Positions 23,108 to 40,812 of a DNA stretch of 40,820 nt are shown one piece after another (position 1 is the first letter of the stretch; each line of letters begins with the position of its first letter). A program made the position numbers and the translations under genes. The DNA comes from Bacteroidales bacterium (GTDB lineage Bacteria; Bacteroidota; Bacteroidia; Bacteroidales; UBA12170): NCBI GenBank assembly GCA_016744655.1, contig JADGDY010000018.1:1-40820 (forward strand), given 5' to 3'. The notes beneath the pieces were generated by a model, which saw only the letters and a program-made list of their open reading frames with translations, made no database searches and was not told where the DNA came from.

Positions 23108-23201
23108 CAGAGGGGACGGAACTGGTGTTCCACCCGGTCTTCAACACCGGTAGCAGACGGATAAAACCGGCTGTGGCAGGTTCGATCCCTGCCCTCTCGG
23201 C
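23108..23201 (+). tRNA. selC: tRNA-Sec (anticodon UCA)
   Basis: The anticodon arm CCGGT-CTTCAAC-ACCGG (23134-23150) carries TCA at the centre of a 7-nt loop. The D arm is a 5-bp stem with a four-base loop (GGAAC-TGGT-GTTCC), as expected for tRNA-Sec. A long variable arm follows (AGC-AGA-CGG, loop ATAAAA, CCG-GCT) with a 3-nt bulge on one side. The T arm is GCAGG-TTCGATC-CCTGC. The acceptor can be drawn as 8 bp with one A-G mismatch and one G-U (23108-23115 with 23193-23200), giving the bacterial 8+5 architecture. The exact ends are uncertain by a few bases. No CCA is encoded. selA, selB and selD lie 4-13 kb downstream. Confidence 0.9.
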
Positions 23202-27965: not shown

Positions 27966-29378
27966 ATGTACAATCAGATGGATTCTTCTAAACAACAATT
28001 TCAAAATCTCCCGGGTGTAGATAAAGTTCTACAGTATACTGGCATTAAATCTTTGGTTGATAGATATAGTAAAGAATTGGTGACTAGTGTGATTCGTAAA
28101 GTAGTTAGTGATTTTCGACACAAGGTTTTGCAAGGAGATGCAAATGTTAAATTTGATGAAATAGAAAATGTTGTAATAGCTAAGTGTGAGAAAATTGCGG
28201 AACGAAGCTTAAAGCCTGTTTTTAATGGATCTGGAATAATAATTCACACCAACCTAGGAAGAGCGCCCTATGGTGAAGAAATATTAGAGGAGGTTTTTGA
28301 TGTGTTGAAAGGCTATAATAATCTGGAATTTAATCTGGAAAAAGGAAGCAGAGGACAAAGAAACGATCATGCCAGCGAAATCCTGAAATATCTTACTGGA
28401 GCCGAGGATGTGGTGATTGTAAATAATAATGCTGCGGCAGTGATGCTCATCCTTCGAGCGTTTGGTAGAGGAAAAGAAGCTATTGTTTCTAGAGGAGAAT
28501 TGATAGAAATTGGAGGTTCTTTTAGGATTCCTGAAATCATGGCAGCATCAGATTGTGGAATGGTAGAGGTTGGAGCCACCAATAAAACCAAAGTGTCTGA
28601 TTATGAAAAAGCCATTAACGAAAATACCGCTTTACTTTTCAAAACACATACTTCTAATTATGTGATTAAAGGCTTTACCCAAGAACTTTCTTTGGAGGAT
28701 CTCTCCAGGTTAGGAAAGAAGCATGGTGTAGCAACAGTCTATGATATTGGTTCTGGTTTATTAAGAAAAGTAGACGAGAAAGCTTTGAAAAACGAGCCAG
28801 ATGTGAAGCAAGCGCTAAATTCTGGAGTCGATATGATTTGCTTTAGTGGGGATAAGCTACTGGGAGGACCACAAGCTGGAATTATAGCGGGTAAAAAGGA
28901 ATTCATCCAAAAGCTAAAAAAAGAACCCATGATACGTGCTTTAAGAGTTGGGAAAACTACTCTCGCCATACTCGAAAAAGCTTGTTCTTACTATCTCAAC
29001 GATAAAGACTTGTTTAAACATAATGTGCTATTTAGAACTTTAAACAAGCCAAATGCTGAAATAAAAGCCTCCTCAGAATATTTACAAAATCTATTAGCGA
29101 AACAATCTATCTCATCTAAGATAGAGGCCACAAAAGGACAATATGGAGGTGGTACATTGCCGGATTTAGAGCTGGATTCATATTCTCTTAAACTAGATTT
29201 AGGAAAAGGAAAAAGTACTGGCAAGCAATTCTATCATCAATTATTAAATCAAAAGCCAGCCTTGTTGACCAATTTAAAAAGCGGTAGTATTTATATCGAT
29301 TTGCTTTGTCTTCAAGAAAAAGATTTGGATGAAGTGGCCGAGTTAATTAAAAAAGCATATAAAAAGCTAGCTTTATGA
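27966..29378 (+). CDS. selA: L-seryl-tRNA(Sec) selenium transferase
   Basis: 470 aa, matching bacterial SelA (about 460). This PLP enzyme converts seryl-tRNA(Sec) to selenocysteinyl-tRNA(Sec) using selenophosphate. The N-terminus (QNLPGVDKVLQ) is the typical SelA start. The large PLP-dependent domain includes IIIHTNLGRAP (91-101), NNNAAAVML (153-161) and the PLP lysine Lys297 in FSGDKLLGGPQAG. ATG 27978 is an alternative start. It overlaps selB by 4 nt (ATGA), which couples translation of the two. tRNA-Sec lies 4.8 kb upstream on the same strand. Confidence 0.96.
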   Translation: MYNQMDSSKQQFQNLPGVDKVLQYTGIKSLVDRYSKELVTSVIRKVVSDFRHKVLQGDANVKFDEIENVVIAKCEKIAERSLKPVFNGSGIIIHTNLGRAPYGEEILEEVFDVLKGYNNLEFNLEKGSRGQRNDHASEILKYLTGAEDVVIVNNNAAAVMLILRAFGRGKEAIVSRGELIEIGGSFRIPEIMAASDCGMVEVGATNKTKVSDYEKAINENTALLFKTHTSNYVIKGFTQELSLEDLSRLGKKHGVATVYDIGSGLLRKVDEKALKNEPDVKQALNSGVDMICFSGDKLLGGPQAGIIAGKKEFIQKLKKEPMIRALRVGKTTLAILEKACSYYLNDKDLFKHNVLFRTLNKPNAEIKASSEYLQNLLAKQSISSKIEATKGQYGGGTLPDLELDSYSLKLDLGKGKSTGKQFYHQLLNQKPALLTNLKSGSIYIDLLCLQEKDLDEVAELIKKAYKKLAL

Positions 29379-31336
29379 AGCATTTAATAATGGGGACAGC
29401 AGGTCATGTGGATCATGGAAAAACCTCGCTGATTAAAGCTTTAACAAATATCGATTGTGATACTCACAAAGAAGAAAAGGAAAGAGGAATCACCATAAAC
29501 TTAGGGTTCTCCCATATTGATTTGTCATCGGGTCATTCTGTTGGAATTATTGATGTTCCTGGCCATAAAGATTTTATCAATACCATGGTGGGTGGTGCAT
29601 GTGGAATCGATTTCGTTTTACTGGTGATTGCCGCGGATTCTGGTTTAATGCCTCAAACTAAAGAGCATTTTAATATCATCAGAGCTCTAAAAGTGAAGAA
29701 AGCCATTATTGCATTAAATAAAGTGGATTTGGTGGACGAAGAGATTGCAGAGCTTGCCAAGCTAGAGATTATGGAATGGCTAGAAGGAACCGAATTTGAG
29801 GATTCTCCAATAGTGGGTGTGAGTAGTATAAGTGGACAAGGTTTAGATGAGCTGAAACAAGAAATAGATCATATTATTCCTCAAATTGAAACTCAGAAGC
29901 AAGATCAGTTTTTCAGATTGTTTATAGATAGAATATTCACTGTGAAAGGGATGGGTTCTGTAGTTACAGGTTCTGTTTTAAATGGTGAAATTGCTGTGGA
30001 CGATGAGGTGTTTCTGCTTCCAGGTTCCAATGATAAGCTGCGCTTAAAAAGCATTCAACGCCACGGTAAAGTTGTGGATAAGGTGATTTCGGGAGATAGA
30101 GCTGCATTTAATCTCTCAGGAATTAAACCTGACGATTTTGAGCGGGGGATGCTATTGAGTAATCAGGAATTGGAAACTACCCAAATGATAGATACGCATA
30201 TCACATTATTCGAGAATTCTGTAGATATTGGAGTTTGGTCAACAGTGGTATTTCACTCAGGAACATTCGAAACTCAAGCGCGTATGCATTTGCTCAATAA
30301 GGATAAACTCAGACCAGGGGAGTCTGGGATTGTGCAATTGGTTCTCGAAAAAGAGAGTATTTTAATTCACAAGGATAAGTTTATCCTTAGAAATTCTTCT
30401 GGAGATAAAAGCATTGGAGGCGGAATCATTATTGATGCTAAACCTTTGCATCATAGAAAAAGAACTCAAAAATTACTCAAAGAGCTCGAATTACTAGTTG
30501 ACGGAATCCTAAACGAAGGAAAAACAGCGGAGCTTATTCTAATCGAATTGAAAAAAGAAAACCTTCCTCTAAGTTTAGCTTTATTGAAAGATAGGCTAAA
30601 AATGACCGAAGAGGAATTGCTTCAAGAAGATAAAAACCTAAAGGGCGTTTCGCTATATCCGAATCATATATATATTGCTGAAATTGCAGAATGGGAAATA
30701 GTGAAAAAGATACAAGCATTTATCTCTGAATTTCATGCAAAAAACCCGATGCTCACCAAAGGCTTAAATGAATTAGAGCTTCTCGGAAAATTAGGCCTCA
30801 ATAAAAACAAAGTTTTTAAAGAATACCTTCCTCATCTATTGCAAAAAATGGAGGAGGATCAACAAGTTAAATCTGTCTTTAAAACTTGGGCTTTGTCTTC
30901 GCATAAAGTCAAGCTTGGTAAAAAAGAAAAAGAAGACTTGGAGTGGTTGGAGCAAATCATAAAAGATTATGGTCCACAAAAACCAATTTATGTTGACATT
31001 AATCAGGCAGCCTACCAAAGGAAGATCAGTAAAGAAAAACTAGCTTCTTATATTGATTATTTAATACAAAATCAGAAATTGAGCCAGCATAAAGGTGAAT
31101 ATGCACATATTGTTTTGGTTGGAAAATATCGAAAAGAATTACTAAAGATTTTAGCGAATCATAAAGAGGGTTTATTCCTTCAGCCTTTTCGTCAAGAATC
31201 AGGCTTATCAAAAAAGATGCTCCCCTTTTTAATAGAGATGTTTGAGGCAGAGGGGTTGCTCATCACTTCAGAGTATAAAAAAGAAAATTATAAAACTCAG
31301 ATTACTGAATTAGGCTTGAGGATACTTAGCTTGTAA
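29375..31336 (+). CDS. selB: Selenocysteine-specific elongation factor
   Basis: 653 aa. SelB delivers Sec-tRNA to the ribosome at UGA codons by binding the SECIS hairpin. The GTPase domain shows G1 GTAGHVDHGKTS (8-19), G3 DVPGHKDF and G4 NKVD; the EF-Tu-like domains II-III follow (up to about 370), then the four winged-helix repeats that bind mRNA (about 400-653). Length and order fit the family (E. coli 614 aa). It overlaps selA by four nucleotides. Its presence with tRNA-Sec implies that UGA is decoded as Sec in some transcripts of this organism, though none is visible here. Confidence 0.96.
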   Translation: MKHLIMGTAGHVDHGKTSLIKALTNIDCDTHKEEKERGITINLGFSHIDLSSGHSVGIIDVPGHKDFINTMVGGACGIDFVLLVIAADSGLMPQTKEHFNIIRALKVKKAIIALNKVDLVDEEIAELAKLEIMEWLEGTEFEDSPIVGVSSISGQGLDELKQEIDHIIPQIETQKQDQFFRLFIDRIFTVKGMGSVVTGSVLNGEIAVDDEVFLLPGSNDKLRLKSIQRHGKVVDKVISGDRAAFNLSGIKPDDFERGMLLSNQELETTQMIDTHITLFENSVDIGVWSTVVFHSGTFETQARMHLLNKDKLRPGESGIVQLVLEKESILIHKDKFILRNSSGDKSIGGGIIIDAKPLHHRKRTQKLLKELELLVDGILNEGKTAELILIELKKENLPLSLALLKDRLKMTEEELLQEDKNLKGVSLYPNHIYIAEIAEWEIVKKIQAFISEFHAKNPMLTKGLNELELLGKLGLNKNKVFKEYLPHLLQKMEEDQQVKSVFKTWALSSHKVKLGKKEKEDLEWLEQIIKDYGPQKPIYVDINQAAYQRKISKEKLASYIDYLIQNQKLSQHKGEYAHIVLVGKYRKELLKILANHKEGLFLQPFRQESGLSKKMLPFLIEMFEAEGLLITSEYKKENYKTQITELGLRILSL

Positions 31337-35208: not shown

Positions 35209-36243
35209 ATGATTTACGATTTATTGGCCTCAGGTCAAGAAGGTGGCTGCTCGGCTAAACTTCCAGCAAAAGAATTAGATAAGGCCTTAGCCGATTTGCC
35301 ACAAATTACTGGACCAGAATTAATGGTGGATATCAGTACCCACGATGATGCTGGCGTATATAAAATTAATGAGGAAACAGCACTTATTCAAACCACTGAT
35401 TTTTTTCCTCCAGTTTGCTCCGACCCTTATGAGTTTGGGCAAATAGCTGCAGCAAATGCATTGAGTGATGTTTATGCCATGGGAGGTAAAGTGATTACTG
35501 CCATGAATTTATTAGAATTCCCTGCTGATCAACCATTAGAAGCCTTAAAGGAAATCATTAGAGGAGGACAAGATAAAGTTGCTGAATCTGGTGGGTATTT
35601 GGTAGGAGGACATACCATCACCGATAAGGTTCCCAAATTTGGTCTGGCAGTTAGCGGACTTGTTCACCCTGATAAAGTAATCACCAATTCCAATGCTAAA
35701 GAAGGTGATGTTTTAATTCTAAGCAAACCCATTGGAGCTGGCATTATTCTAGCAGGAAAAAAAATAGGGGAGGCCAAGCCAAAAGATTATCAAGCCTGTT
35801 TGGATAATATGAAGTTGCTGAATAAAAAAGGTGCCGAAATCATGCAGAAATATGGCGTGAAATGTGCTACCGATGTCACAGGATTTGGATTGATTGGTCA
35901 TGCTTATAAATTAGCTTTAGCTAGCGATGTATGTTTGGAATTAGGTACTCATAATCTTCCCTTACTAAATGGGGCTTATGATTTAGCTGAGTTAGGCTGT
36001 TTGCCAGGAGCTTGCTTTAGAAATCAAGAGTTTGTTGAGGAGTTTTGCCAATTCAGCGATGATGTAGTTTATGAAAACAAAATGCTCCTTCACGATGCCC
36101 AAACCTCTGGTGGCTTGCTAATGTGTGTACCTAAGGAATCAGTAAATATAGTATTGGAGGAATTGAGAAATTCTGATTATCCTTATTCTGCAGTTGTGGG
36201 AGAAGTAAAGGCTAAGGGAGATTTCTTAGTGGAAGTGTCTTAA
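35209..36243 (+). CDS. selD: Selenide, water dikinase (Cys form)
   Basis: 344 aa, the normal SelD length. It makes selenophosphate from selenide and ATP, the selenium donor for SelA. The catalytic loop GQEGGCSAKLP has Cys14 and Lys17; in selenoprotein versions of SelD the Cys is Sec, so this SelD is made independently of the Sec machinery. The AIRS-type N-terminal domain with STHDDAGVY (metal/ATP binding) and the C-terminal domain with ATDVTGFGLIGHA follow. It is the second gene after yedF and ends 222 nt before a convergent epimerase gene. Confidence 0.96.
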   Translation: MIYDLLASGQEGGCSAKLPAKELDKALADLPQITGPELMVDISTHDDAGVYKINEETALIQTTDFFPPVCSDPYEFGQIAAANALSDVYAMGGKVITAMNLLEFPADQPLEALKEIIRGGQDKVAESGGYLVGGHTITDKVPKFGLAVSGLVHPDKVITNSNAKEGDVLILSKPIGAGIILAGKKIGEAKPKDYQACLDNMKLLNKKGAEIMQKYGVKCATDVTGFGLIGHAYKLALASDVCLELGTHNLPLLNGAYDLAELGCLPGACFRNQEFVEEFCQFSDDVVYENKMLLHDAQTSGGLLMCVPKESVNIVLEELRNSDYPYSAVVGEVKAKGDFLVEVS

Positions 36244-37497: not shown

Positions 37498-37560
37498 TGA
37501 GCAAAGATATAAAATTACTCATGCCAGTTAAATGGATGATTGTTGTTTGTCATTTTATTA

Positions 37561-37584
37561 TGATTAATTAGTACTAGTTAATTA
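37561..37584. promoter_or_regulatory. 24-bp near-perfect palindrome between divergent promoters
   Basis: The sequence reads the same on both strands over 12 half-positions, with only two G-T type mismatches; the core is AATTAGTACTAGTT. It sits between the epimerase start (37497) and the -7 box of the SIR2 gene (37624), where a repressor dimer could control one or both. The AT-rich composition makes short palindromes likely by chance, but not one this long. Confidence 0.45.
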
Positions 37585-37623
37585 TTGATTTATCTTAGAA
37601 GAATAATCATTTGGATTAATTAA

Positions 37624-37631
37624 TATCTTTG
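37624..37631 (+). promoter_or_regulatory. -7 promoter box for the SIR2 gene (TATCTTTG)
   Basis: An exact TAnnTTTG match, 31 nt upstream of ATG 37663. The expected transcription start near 37638 makes the TTG at 37639 an unlikely start codon. No -33 TTG at usual spacing. Confidence 0.5.
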
Positions 37632-37662: not shown

Positions 37663-40600
37663 ATGAGAAGAAGTATTTTTAGAAATGAATTTGAAGTTTT
37701 TAAAGGAAAATTAAACAGCTTAAATGAACATCTGTATTTAGATTTAAAACATGAATTATTCAGGATAGAAACTGAATTGATTGGAGAAACTTTCCTTTTT
37801 TTAAAGCCAGAAATTAAATCGGAAAATTGCCTTGTAGATGTAATCAGTAATAAAATAGAAGATATTGACCTTGTTGATAATCTTAAGAAATTATTTATTA
37901 TTGAAGATGACCTTGACTTGCCGCCACATCTACTTGGTGAGTTTGTAGCAAAGAATGTAGTTTTATTCATTGGTGCAGGAGCATCTGTTGGTTTAGGGTA
38001 TCCAAATTGGTGGGCCCTAGGGAAAAAAGCAATCAAAAAACTTGAGTCTAATGGCCAGATTAGTAAATACACCGCTGAAAATTTGTTGAATAGTAATACG
38101 GATCCGAAACAACTTTTATCTGTTTTTGAGGGGTTTAATCCTAAAGAAACAGAAGAGTGCAAGGGTTTTTATGAAGGGATATTTAAGCATAAGGGTCTTG
38201 AAAAGGCAGATGAAAACAAAGAAAGAGGTGTTTATGATATAATAACTGATTCTTCTTTTGGCGGTAAAATCATTACTACTAATATTGATGAAGAAGTAGC
38301 TTTGGCTTTCAATGAGAAATACTCTAGAGTAAAGCATAACGAGTTGGTAGATGTTCAGAATGGGGACCAAGAAGTGAAAGATAATCTATTAGTTCAGGAT
38401 GAATATGAAACGCTAGGGGATTTTAGGTTTAATAATAAGCAGGATCAAATTGTTTATTTGCATGGTTCTGTAAATAAAATAGCAAATACAATTTTTACTA
38501 TTAAGGATTATAGTAATAGATATTTCCACAAAGACTCTGAAATAGTGGCTTTTCTGGAATATGTTTTTAATAAATATACTGTATTATTTATAGGATATGG
38601 TTTAGCTGAATTTACAATTTTGGAATCTATTTTGAACTCTAAAACAAAAAAGATACATTATTCATTAGAAGCTACTTTCCTAAGTGATATAGAAACAATA
38701 GATGTTAAAACAAGGGCGTTTAAGGAACTAAATGTAAGTGTAATTCCTTACTATAGAGATAATAAAGATTATGCAAGACTATTAGATGTTCTTGAAAGTT
38801 GGATGAGAAAAATTATTAATACGCCTAATACTTTTTTGGCAAGAATTCATAAAATCAATGAAGTAAAAATTGCAAAAGAAATAGATGTAATAGAGAATTC
38901 GACAATTGCATTGTTGAAGGAGGATGCTGCTTTGCGTAAATTATTTTTACAAGAAGTCGATAATTCTGACTGGTTGTTTTCATTGAGAAATGCTAACCTT
39001 TTTTGTACAGATGTCTATAAGATTCCTGATACAAGAAATTTAAAAAAAGGTGATGCAATTATTTGGGAGCAAATTCTTTTTTTGCAAAAAATATCTGAAT
39101 TGGAAGGCTTTGTAAATAAACAAAACCTGGTAGATGGGATTTTGATAATCTTAGATAAAATAATTAACAGTGGTTATTGTAATTATTGGGTTGATGATAG
39201 GATTTCACTTATTTTAGGGAAGGTTCCTCAAGAAGTAATTGAATACAAGTTATTAAAAACACATTTAAGTAATATTTCTAAGAATCCATTTGAATCTCAG
39301 AAGTCAGATTTCTGGTCAATTAGAGATTTGGTTTATAATTTATTTATGTCAAATAGTTATAATGAGATAAAGCTTATTTGTAATCACCTATGGGGTTTTG
39401 TTGCAATCAAGCCAAGCAAGAGAAAAATGAAATATGAGCCAAACTCATTCATTTATAACTTTAAAAAAGAAGAGTTTCCTGTTGCTATTTGTAGAGATGC
39501 CTACATGAAAATCTTTGATAACATTTCTAAGTTATTACTAATTGAAGGGAAGTCAAGTATTTATTCCTTTAAAAATCATTTTATCTTCGAGGATACCAGA
39601 TATAGTTTAGTATTTGAACTACAAAAATCTTTTAACATAAAAACTGTACTGACAAACGGAGATAAAAAGATTTTTGAATTTAAAATTGAAAGGTTTTATG
39701 ATAAATCTATTTCAGAAATAGATTTATTAATAAAAAATAAGCTTGTTGCTAATGATATTGACCCATTGGAAATTAAATTCGAAACATTTTATTATAGTGA
39801 ATTAAACTTAGTACAAATTATAATACATTTATTTGAAGAAAATTATCAGCTTCGAGATTTAGATTTGATAGATTTATCAGAGACAAGTGATGAGAATGAT
39901 ATTTTGAGTCTAGTTAAGATTTATATCCAACTCATTGAGCTATTTTCAACTCAATACTTTGATGATTTTAGATCGTATATTGGTCAACTATTCGATAATA
40001 AAAAATTTTATTTGCCTGTATTTAAGAAAGTTGGATTGTATTTTATTAATTTGAATTTTAAAGAACTAGAGGATTTGTTTTGGGAAAATATCAGTTGTTA
40101 TGATTTCTTAAGTAAGTACGAATATAACGAACTTACTTATAATTTGCTAAATATGAATAGTCAATTAATTGGACTAGAGGGTGTAAGTGCTTTGAGGCAA
40201 TTAATTGTAAATGGTCCAAATCTAGAATTTGACTACAATAAGGAGAAGAATAAAGAGTCGTGGCAATTAAAATGGGTTTCAATATTTAAGGATAATCCTA
40301 GTTTTAATGATCTATATGAACAGACGCTAAGAGCTAATAATGGAGAAGTGTATTCCCATCGAAGACTCGGGAAAATGTACTTTTCAAGTCCTACCTCACC
40401 ATATTCCATTTCAGAGTTAGGTGTCATGAGCATTCAAGAGATTGTACAAAAAATTGAAGAATTTGAGCCTAATAAGAAAGGTTTTAATGAACCTGACGAA
40501 TTTGGATTTGCATCTGCCATTCAGGAAGATTCGAATAGAAATATCAATAAATATGTCAATCATTTGGATTTATTTTTAACTGTTGAAAATAGAATCCTAA

Positions 40601-40812
40601 GTGCGATTATTGAATCAATAGGATCCCAAATAGAAATCTGTGTGATATCTTTAGATCTCATCCTGAAATTTTTCAATGATTTATTTGAAGATGAATCAAG
40701 TGTAGAGAGCTTTGAGCGTAAAAAAATGATTTCTAATATAATTGAACTTCTATCTAGAATAATTAAGACTGATAATGTGTCATTGACAATTAGAGAGATG
40801 AAACAAATTTAG
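37663..40812 (+). CDS. SIR2-domain protein, probable antiphage NADase (DSR-like)
   Basis: 1049 aa from ATG at 37663. Residues about 1-95 are an extra helical N-terminus. About 96-385 form a SIR2-like domain: the NAD-binding GAGAS (104-108), the catalytic-site asparagine in TTNID (Asn207), the catalytic histidine in YLHGS (His267) and GYGLAE (311-316). All key residues are present, so NAD hydrolysis is plausible. The remaining ~660 residues are helical, with no family that I recognise. Size and layout resemble defence sirtuins DSR1/DSR2, in which the SIR2 domain depletes NAD+ after the C-terminal part senses a phage protein. Only 8 bp follow the stop in this window, so a partner gene cannot be excluded. 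Other SIR2 defence types (Thoeris, SIR2-HerA, AVAST) have different partner or fused domains. Confidence 0.85.
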   Translation: MRRSIFRNEFEVFKGKLNSLNEHLYLDLKHELFRIETELIGETFLFLKPEIKSENCLVDVISNKIEDIDLVDNLKKLFIIEDDLDLPPHLLGEFVAKNVVLFIGAGASVGLGYPNWWALGKKAIKKLESNGQISKYTAENLLNSNTDPKQLLSVFEGFNPKETEECKGFYEGIFKHKGLEKADENKERGVYDIITDSSFGGKIITTNIDEEVALAFNEKYSRVKHNELVDVQNGDQEVKDNLLVQDEYETLGDFRFNNKQDQIVYLHGSVNKIANTIFTIKDYSNRYFHKDSEIVAFLEYVFNKYTVLFIGYGLAEFTILESILNSKTKKIHYSLEATFLSDIETIDVKTRAFKELNVSVIPYYRDNKDYARLLDVLESWMRKIINTPNTFLARIHKINEVKIAKEIDVIENSTIALLKEDAALRKLFLQEVDNSDWLFSLRNANLFCTDVYKIPDTRNLKKGDAIIWEQILFLQKISELEGFVNKQNLVDGILIILDKIINSGYCNYWVDDRISLILGKVPQEVIEYKLLKTHLSNISKNPFESQKSDFWSIRDLVYNLFMSNSYNEIKLICNHLWGFVAIKPSKRKMKYEPNSFIYNFKKEEFPVAICRDAYMKIFDNISKLLLIEGKSSIYSFKNHFIFEDTRYSLVFELQKSFNIKTVLTNGDKKIFEFKIERFYDKSISEIDLLIKNKLVANDIDPLEIKFETFYYSELNLVQIIIHLFEENYQLRDLDLIDLSETSDENDILSLVKIYIQLIELFSTQYFDDFRSYIGQLFDNKKFYLPVFKKVGLYFINLNFKELEDLFWENISCYDFLSKYEYNELTYNLLNMNSQLIGLEGVSALRQLIVNGPNLEFDYNKEKNKESWQLKWVSIFKDNPSFNDLYEQTLRANNGEVYSHRRLGKMYFSSPTSPYSISELGVMSIQEIVQKIEEFEPNKKGFNEPDEFGFASAIQEDSNRNINKYVNHLDLFLTVENRILSAIIESIGSQIEICVISLDLILKFFNDLFEDESSVESFERKKMISNIIELLSRIIKTDNVSLTIREMKQI

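Follow-up and report, generated by a model that had tools for sequence, protein, structure and literature searches.

The gene that runs to the end of this contig is very probably a divergent Dsr1-family gene gained by horizontal transfer. Its product would join a SIR2-like NAD+ hydrolase to a helical solenoid sensor for phage defence, and in the contig it is cut about 350 residues short. The window, by which we mean the whole stretch of DNA analysed, is an entire contig (G000:C246, 40,820 bases) of a genome that is 87% complete in 273 contigs. The gene itself is a divergent form within a defence family already described; of more interest are its relatives, some of them split and some with another effector. 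The features discussed below are as follows.

37560..37585, no strand: imperfect 26-bp palindrome between divergent genes; weak, role unproven
37663..40812, + strand: DSR1-family open reading frame, 1,049 aa, ATG start; C-terminally incomplete compared with all relatives
37663..37926, + strand: N-terminal extension, about residues 1 to 88, no Pfam family; shared with the SIR2 protein of locus L018
37927..38832, + strand: SIR2-like NADase domain, about residues 89 to 390, from Pfam SIR2_2 (E-value 2.5e-12) and the predicted fold
37972..37986, + strand: GAGAS motif, residues 104 to 108, NAD-binding loop, from the translation
38275..38289, + strand: TTNID motif, residues 205 to 209; N207 and D209 unchanged in all 27 family members
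38455..38469, + strand: YLHGS motif, residues 265 to 269; H267, also unchanged in all 27, aligns with KomC H146
38860..40809, + strand: Dsr1-type helical sensor, about residues 400 to 1049, incomplete; from the PDLC04166 match and our own profile
39541..39777, + strand: insert in the sensor, about residues 627 to 705, predicted beta-meander plus helix; from alignment and model
40810..40812, + strand: TAG stop, 8 bases short of the contig end and within the conserved sensor

A SIR2 effector joined to a Dsr1 sensor

The PADLOC Dsr1 model PDLC04166 matches the window protein with an E-value of 6.6e-60 in two stretches. The first covers residues 86 to 587 (model positions 12 to 493), and the second covers nucleotides 39802 to 40809 (model positions 533 to 875 of 1227, E-value 7.6e-15). 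Both parts of a PADLOC Dsr1 protein are present: a front SIR2-like NADase domain, which has the active-site Asn and His, and a helical sensor, which is colinear with the model across these positions. The first-pass annotation had proposed a defence protein with a SIR2-like NADase, built like DSR1 and DSR2, and an intact active site. Both descriptions stand, and translation confirms the frame that it gave, with an ATG start and 1,049 codons.

The GAGAS, TTNID and YLHGS motifs are all present, and G311 and G313 are, like the Asn, Asp and His of the motifs, invariant in 27/27 family members. The correspondence of H267 to KomC H146 comes from a phmmer alignment. In DSR2, NADase activity needs the conserved SIR2 residues N133 and H171 (PMC10981675). 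The structure predicted for the window protein (mean pLDDT 72.9) has an NADase-type SIR2 fold at residues 82 to 385, closest to KomC (Z 22.6), ThsA (Z 22.6) and DSR2 (Z 22.1). The best Foldseek matches are DSR2, then ThsA, KomC and FAM118B, and the family profile retrieves KomC, DSR2 and ThsA by sequence.

The C-terminal 660 or so residues had been considered impossible to place. This does not hold, for about 650 of them are placed by PADLOC Dsr1 and by our own profile, which was built from 26 relatives with the window protein left out. The independent profile gives 328.8 bits, aligning residues 80 to 1044 with positions 5 to 873 of 1227. The sensor part alone scores 89.1 bits, whereas none of 200 shuffles exceeded 4.4, and the last 150 residues score 47.6 bits. 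As judged by these profiles, the supposedly unplaceable tail is an incomplete copy of the known Dsr1 module. The strands of its insert (residues 634 to 675) are predicted at middling confidence; an insert of similar length occurs in L019, L021, L024, L025 and L044 and is missing in most fused members.

The intact sensor of L018, the nearest relative found, is predicted to be a nearly all-helical solenoid (mean pLDDT 85.9). Sequence searches with this sensor recovered designed helical proteins and no natural relative of known structure. In fold it is similar to Avs4 and to many solenoids of the HEAT type, but no more than the background. The comparison with Avs4 bound to a phage portal (8dgf; Foldseek E-value 6.1e-5, TM 0.32; Z 10.2 over 583 residues at 8.2 Å) lies within this helical-repeat background and is a lead only.

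The gene is incomplete at the contig end

Profile homology reaches the final residues of the window protein (position 873 of 1227), the PDLC04166 positions beyond about 875 are absent where the contig stops, and 26/26 relatives continue for another 283 to 376 residues after the last aligned column. With every relative longer and just 8 bases left after the stop, the copy in the contig lacks part of its C-terminus, which changes the meaning of the 660 C-terminal residues counted earlier. A profile of the missing sensor part found no match in the source genome at an E-value of up to 10, while it matched 4/4 control genomes known to carry that part; the remainder is therefore either unassembled or absent. 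Most likely, the natural gene continues and the contig end marks an assembly limit or error, but the stop may be a real nonsense mutation.

Two other readings of the stop were discarded. By eye it seemed to replace a conserved Trp, but the wider alignment has no conserved Trp there. Read-through by selenocysteine insertion is ruled out because the stop is TAG.

An N-terminal extension common to one other system

Most relatives have about 17 to 36 residues before the GAGAS strand, compared with an extension of about 88 residues in the window protein. The unfamiliar N-terminal stretch noticed earlier, then put at about 95 residues, is real. It is 34% identical to the N-terminus of the L018 SIR2 protein (Nitrospirae MAG MYbinv3), and blastp against that protein gives 1e-16 over residues 1 to 127, the start of the SIR2 domain included. 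No further convincing match was found among 296 genomes of the phylum or viral contigs. The proteins that did come up, among them a glycosyltransferase and one resembling a histidine kinase, matched by chance only.

Fused, split and effector-swapped relatives

Single-sequence scans of genome and viral contigs returned no relative and tblastn against phages gave no match, so an alignment query was needed. It recovered 60 loci among 84,980 species genomes; the carriers belong to Bacillota, Pseudomonadota, Nitrospirota, archaea and other groups, and one viral contig was recovered as well. The 26 aligned systems, among which L012 and L030 are near-copies, comprise 10 single proteins (1,178 to 1,354 aa) and 16 pairs of adjacent genes. 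The usual pair consists of a SIR2 protein of 270 to 400 aa and a sensor of 857 to 1,074 aa; two of the 16 have lengths of 503 to 506 and 746 to 750 aa. L034, L038 and L078 are split after residue 503 to 506, which falls within the sensor; the stop codon of the first gene overlaps the start of the second, and the 506-aa length recurs in a viral contig.

Fused and split forms cluster in the SIR2 tree. The window protein pairs with L018 (support 94/81) in the half where split forms predominate, and its branch is long, at 2.15 changes per column. Its closest relatives are mostly two-gene systems in which the second gene is the sensor and not HerA, TIR or SLOG. Two of the split systems adjoin restriction-modification genes: in L021 (1554-12088) the pair lies directly downstream of type I R-M-S genes, and in L004/L011 directly downstream of a type IIG enzyme-methyltransferase. 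The two-gene system L012 (12001-15742) is on the mobilizable plasmid pOCN014 of Vibrio coralliilyticus, near a McrBC-like pair and a SLATT protein.

In L015/L017 (G980), SIR2 is replaced and the Dsr1-type sensor is fused to an N-terminal PIN_12 domain, possibly a nuclease version of the system. Dsr1-type sensors with other N-termini of about 130 to 150 residues were seen in L005 (1498-4728) and L007 (841-4149). These N-termini gave nothing above the Pfam cut-offs, and both show a FNKLAHR/FHRIAHR-like motif.

The chances are about even that Dsr1 is a modular system, a SIR2 effector and a helical sensor that are fused or encoded by adjacent genes, the sensor also occurring with other effectors (the PIN nuclease fusion). 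The window gene would then be a fused member, either re-fused or ancestral, of a branch that is mostly split, and would have gained an N-terminal regulatory domain that one two-gene relative also has. This modularity (fused, split and effector-swapped) is undescribed in the open literature searched, which is weak evidence of novelty. We found no description of the DSR1 trigger in open papers. A sensor that is encoded apart from SIR2, or carried on a PIN nuclease, offers a direct route to purify the sensor alone and find its phage ligand, and the split and PIN-fused relatives provide a test of whether effectors are exchangeable. To this the window gene, though incomplete, adds a conserved N-terminal extension.

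Comparison with known systems

Compared with fused PDLC04166 members such as that of Clostridium ganghwense (L026, 1,210 aa), the window protein likewise has a SIR2_2 effector in front and the same helical sensor behind it, and it is colinear with them over positions 12 to 875. It differs by about 88 extra N-terminal residues, by the sensor insert of about 90 residues and by the absence in the contig of the last 350 or so positions, and it scores 201 bits against 1,522 for L026. L018 of Nitrospirae bacterium MYbinv3 has the N-terminal extension (34%) and the SIR2 domain (35%, best segment) in common with it. However, L018 consists of two adjacent genes (SIR2, 400 aa; sensor, 952 aa), its sensor is complete and the insert of about 90 residues is absent.

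DSR2 of Bacillus subtilis (8wy8 and others) resembles the window protein in having a front SIR2 NADase (Z about 22) and a long helical C-terminal sensor. The structural comparison with DSR2 that the first-pass annotation proposed bears out the likeness of the SIR2 fold but goes no further, as Foldseek alignments over the whole length reach a TM of just about 0.22 and no sequence match links the sensor to DSR2. The Dsr1 sensor profile finds no DSR2 chain among PDB sequences, and the PADLOC Dsr2 model does not match the window protein at an E-value of up to 1. Activation by a phage tail tube protein is a mark of DSR2. KomC and ThsA are alike in SIR2 sequence and fold, with the catalytic His aligned, but KomC works with KomB and ThsA has a SLOG domain, and neither has a Dsr1 sensor. 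Pfam and PADLOC scans found no SLOG-type model, the trait of Thoeris ThsA, in the window protein.

PADLOC holds three Dsr1 models with little mutual similarity, and the DSR1 protein studied by experiment may fall under one of the two models other than PDLC04166. The Vibrio cholerae SIR2 paper (PMC11559045) treats SIR2-HerA and not the Dsr1 family.

Proposed action and alternative explanations

We hypothesize, by homology to the family, that the sensor of the intact protein would bind a phage component during infection and, once triggered, release the SIR2 domain. The freed domain would hydrolyze NAD+, and the loss of NAD+ would stop phage replication and thereby protect the cell. According to a review of Garb et al. 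2022 (PMC10952713), DSR1 differs from DSR2 in that it halts phage replication and the cell does not die; abortive infection is therefore not to be assumed.

Whether the window copy could act in this way depends on the stop, and possibly the copy is broken. If the stop is real, the gene would be a decaying Dsr1 pseudogene with a complete SIR2 domain and a sensor about 350 residues short, probably unresponsive, and the window copy may be inactive. The stop is present in the assembled sequence, the remainder was found nowhere else in the genome with controls working, and the gene stands alone among household genes. However, assemblies are at their least reliable near a contig end, here 8 bases away, the frame stays open for all 1,049 codons before the stop, and in a genome of this completeness the remainder may simply be missing. 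On balance we regard a decaying gene as rather unlikely. The first-pass annotation also raised a new subtype with a different trigger, and here the N-terminal half of the argument fares better than the C-terminal one, as the extension is real and common to one other system, whereas the C-terminus is the known Dsr1 module ended by the contig. In a distinct subtype, the extension and the sensor insert would alter sensing or the restraint of SIR2, and the trigger would be unlike that of other Dsr1 proteins. The conservation of the extension in the Nitrospirota two-gene system L018, the pairing of the two proteins in the SIR2 tree and the confinement of the insert to one part of the family are consistent with this proposal. 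Yet the extension occurs in two proteins only, the model of it has low confidence values (pLDDT about 42 to 67) and L018 is without the insert, which leaves such a subtype a tentative and doubtful prospect.

It is most improbable that the protein is a non-defence sirtuin, that is, a deacetylase or a metabolic NAD+ enzyme. The fold is that of the SIR2 superfamily, and the classical sirtuin 1ici appears in the same fold list, but with a lower score (Z 12.2); the anti-phage NADases KomC, DSR2 and ThsA come closest both in sequence and in fold. Moreover, Pfam gives SIR2_2 and not SIR2, a Dsr1-type sensor is attached, and relatives occur in restriction-modification operons. A Dsr1-family defence protein, incomplete in this contig, is thus the reading that we prefer.

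Genomic setting and upstream region

The window gene has a GC content of 28.7%, compared with 35 to 40% in most of its neighbours. The distribution of the gene is patchy: at an E-value of up to 1e-8, relatives were found in 0/10 other genomes of the genus and in none of the others among 393 genomes of the order. In the nearest genome (G002), the selD-epimerase order is kept and sugar-metabolism genes take the place of the window gene. Together, the low GC content, the patchy distribution and this gene order fit horizontal acquisition. The upstream neighbour is the epimerase and no HerA ATPase, the downstream side lies beyond the contig end, and no other defence genes were recognised in the window. 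With that flank missing and the closest relatives mostly gene pairs, the single-gene system that the first-pass annotation put forward stays a candidate.

The gene had also been credited with a promoter of its own and a 24-bp palindrome upstream. A search of the + strand ahead of the start codon found no sigma-70-like site, and the region holds three such sites, as many as its shuffles (3.1 expected), so the promoter claim falls. The sequence TATCTTTG at 37624-37631 fits the −7 half of the Bacteroidota promoter consensus, and there is no −33 half at the usual spacing from it. The palindrome exists, but it is an imperfect and weak one of 26 bp; palindromes with at least 11 of 13 pairs appear in 1.2% of Markov shuffles of the AT-rich gap. 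Because it lies between two divergent genes, it can be assigned to neither.

Inside the gene, at 39694-39735, there is a near-perfect inverted repeat with an 88% match to its own reverse complement. The neighbours of the gene are household genes, among them a full selenocysteine machinery, made up in the contig of tRNA-Sec (23108-23201), SelA (27966-29378), SelB (29375-31336) and SelD (35209-36243).
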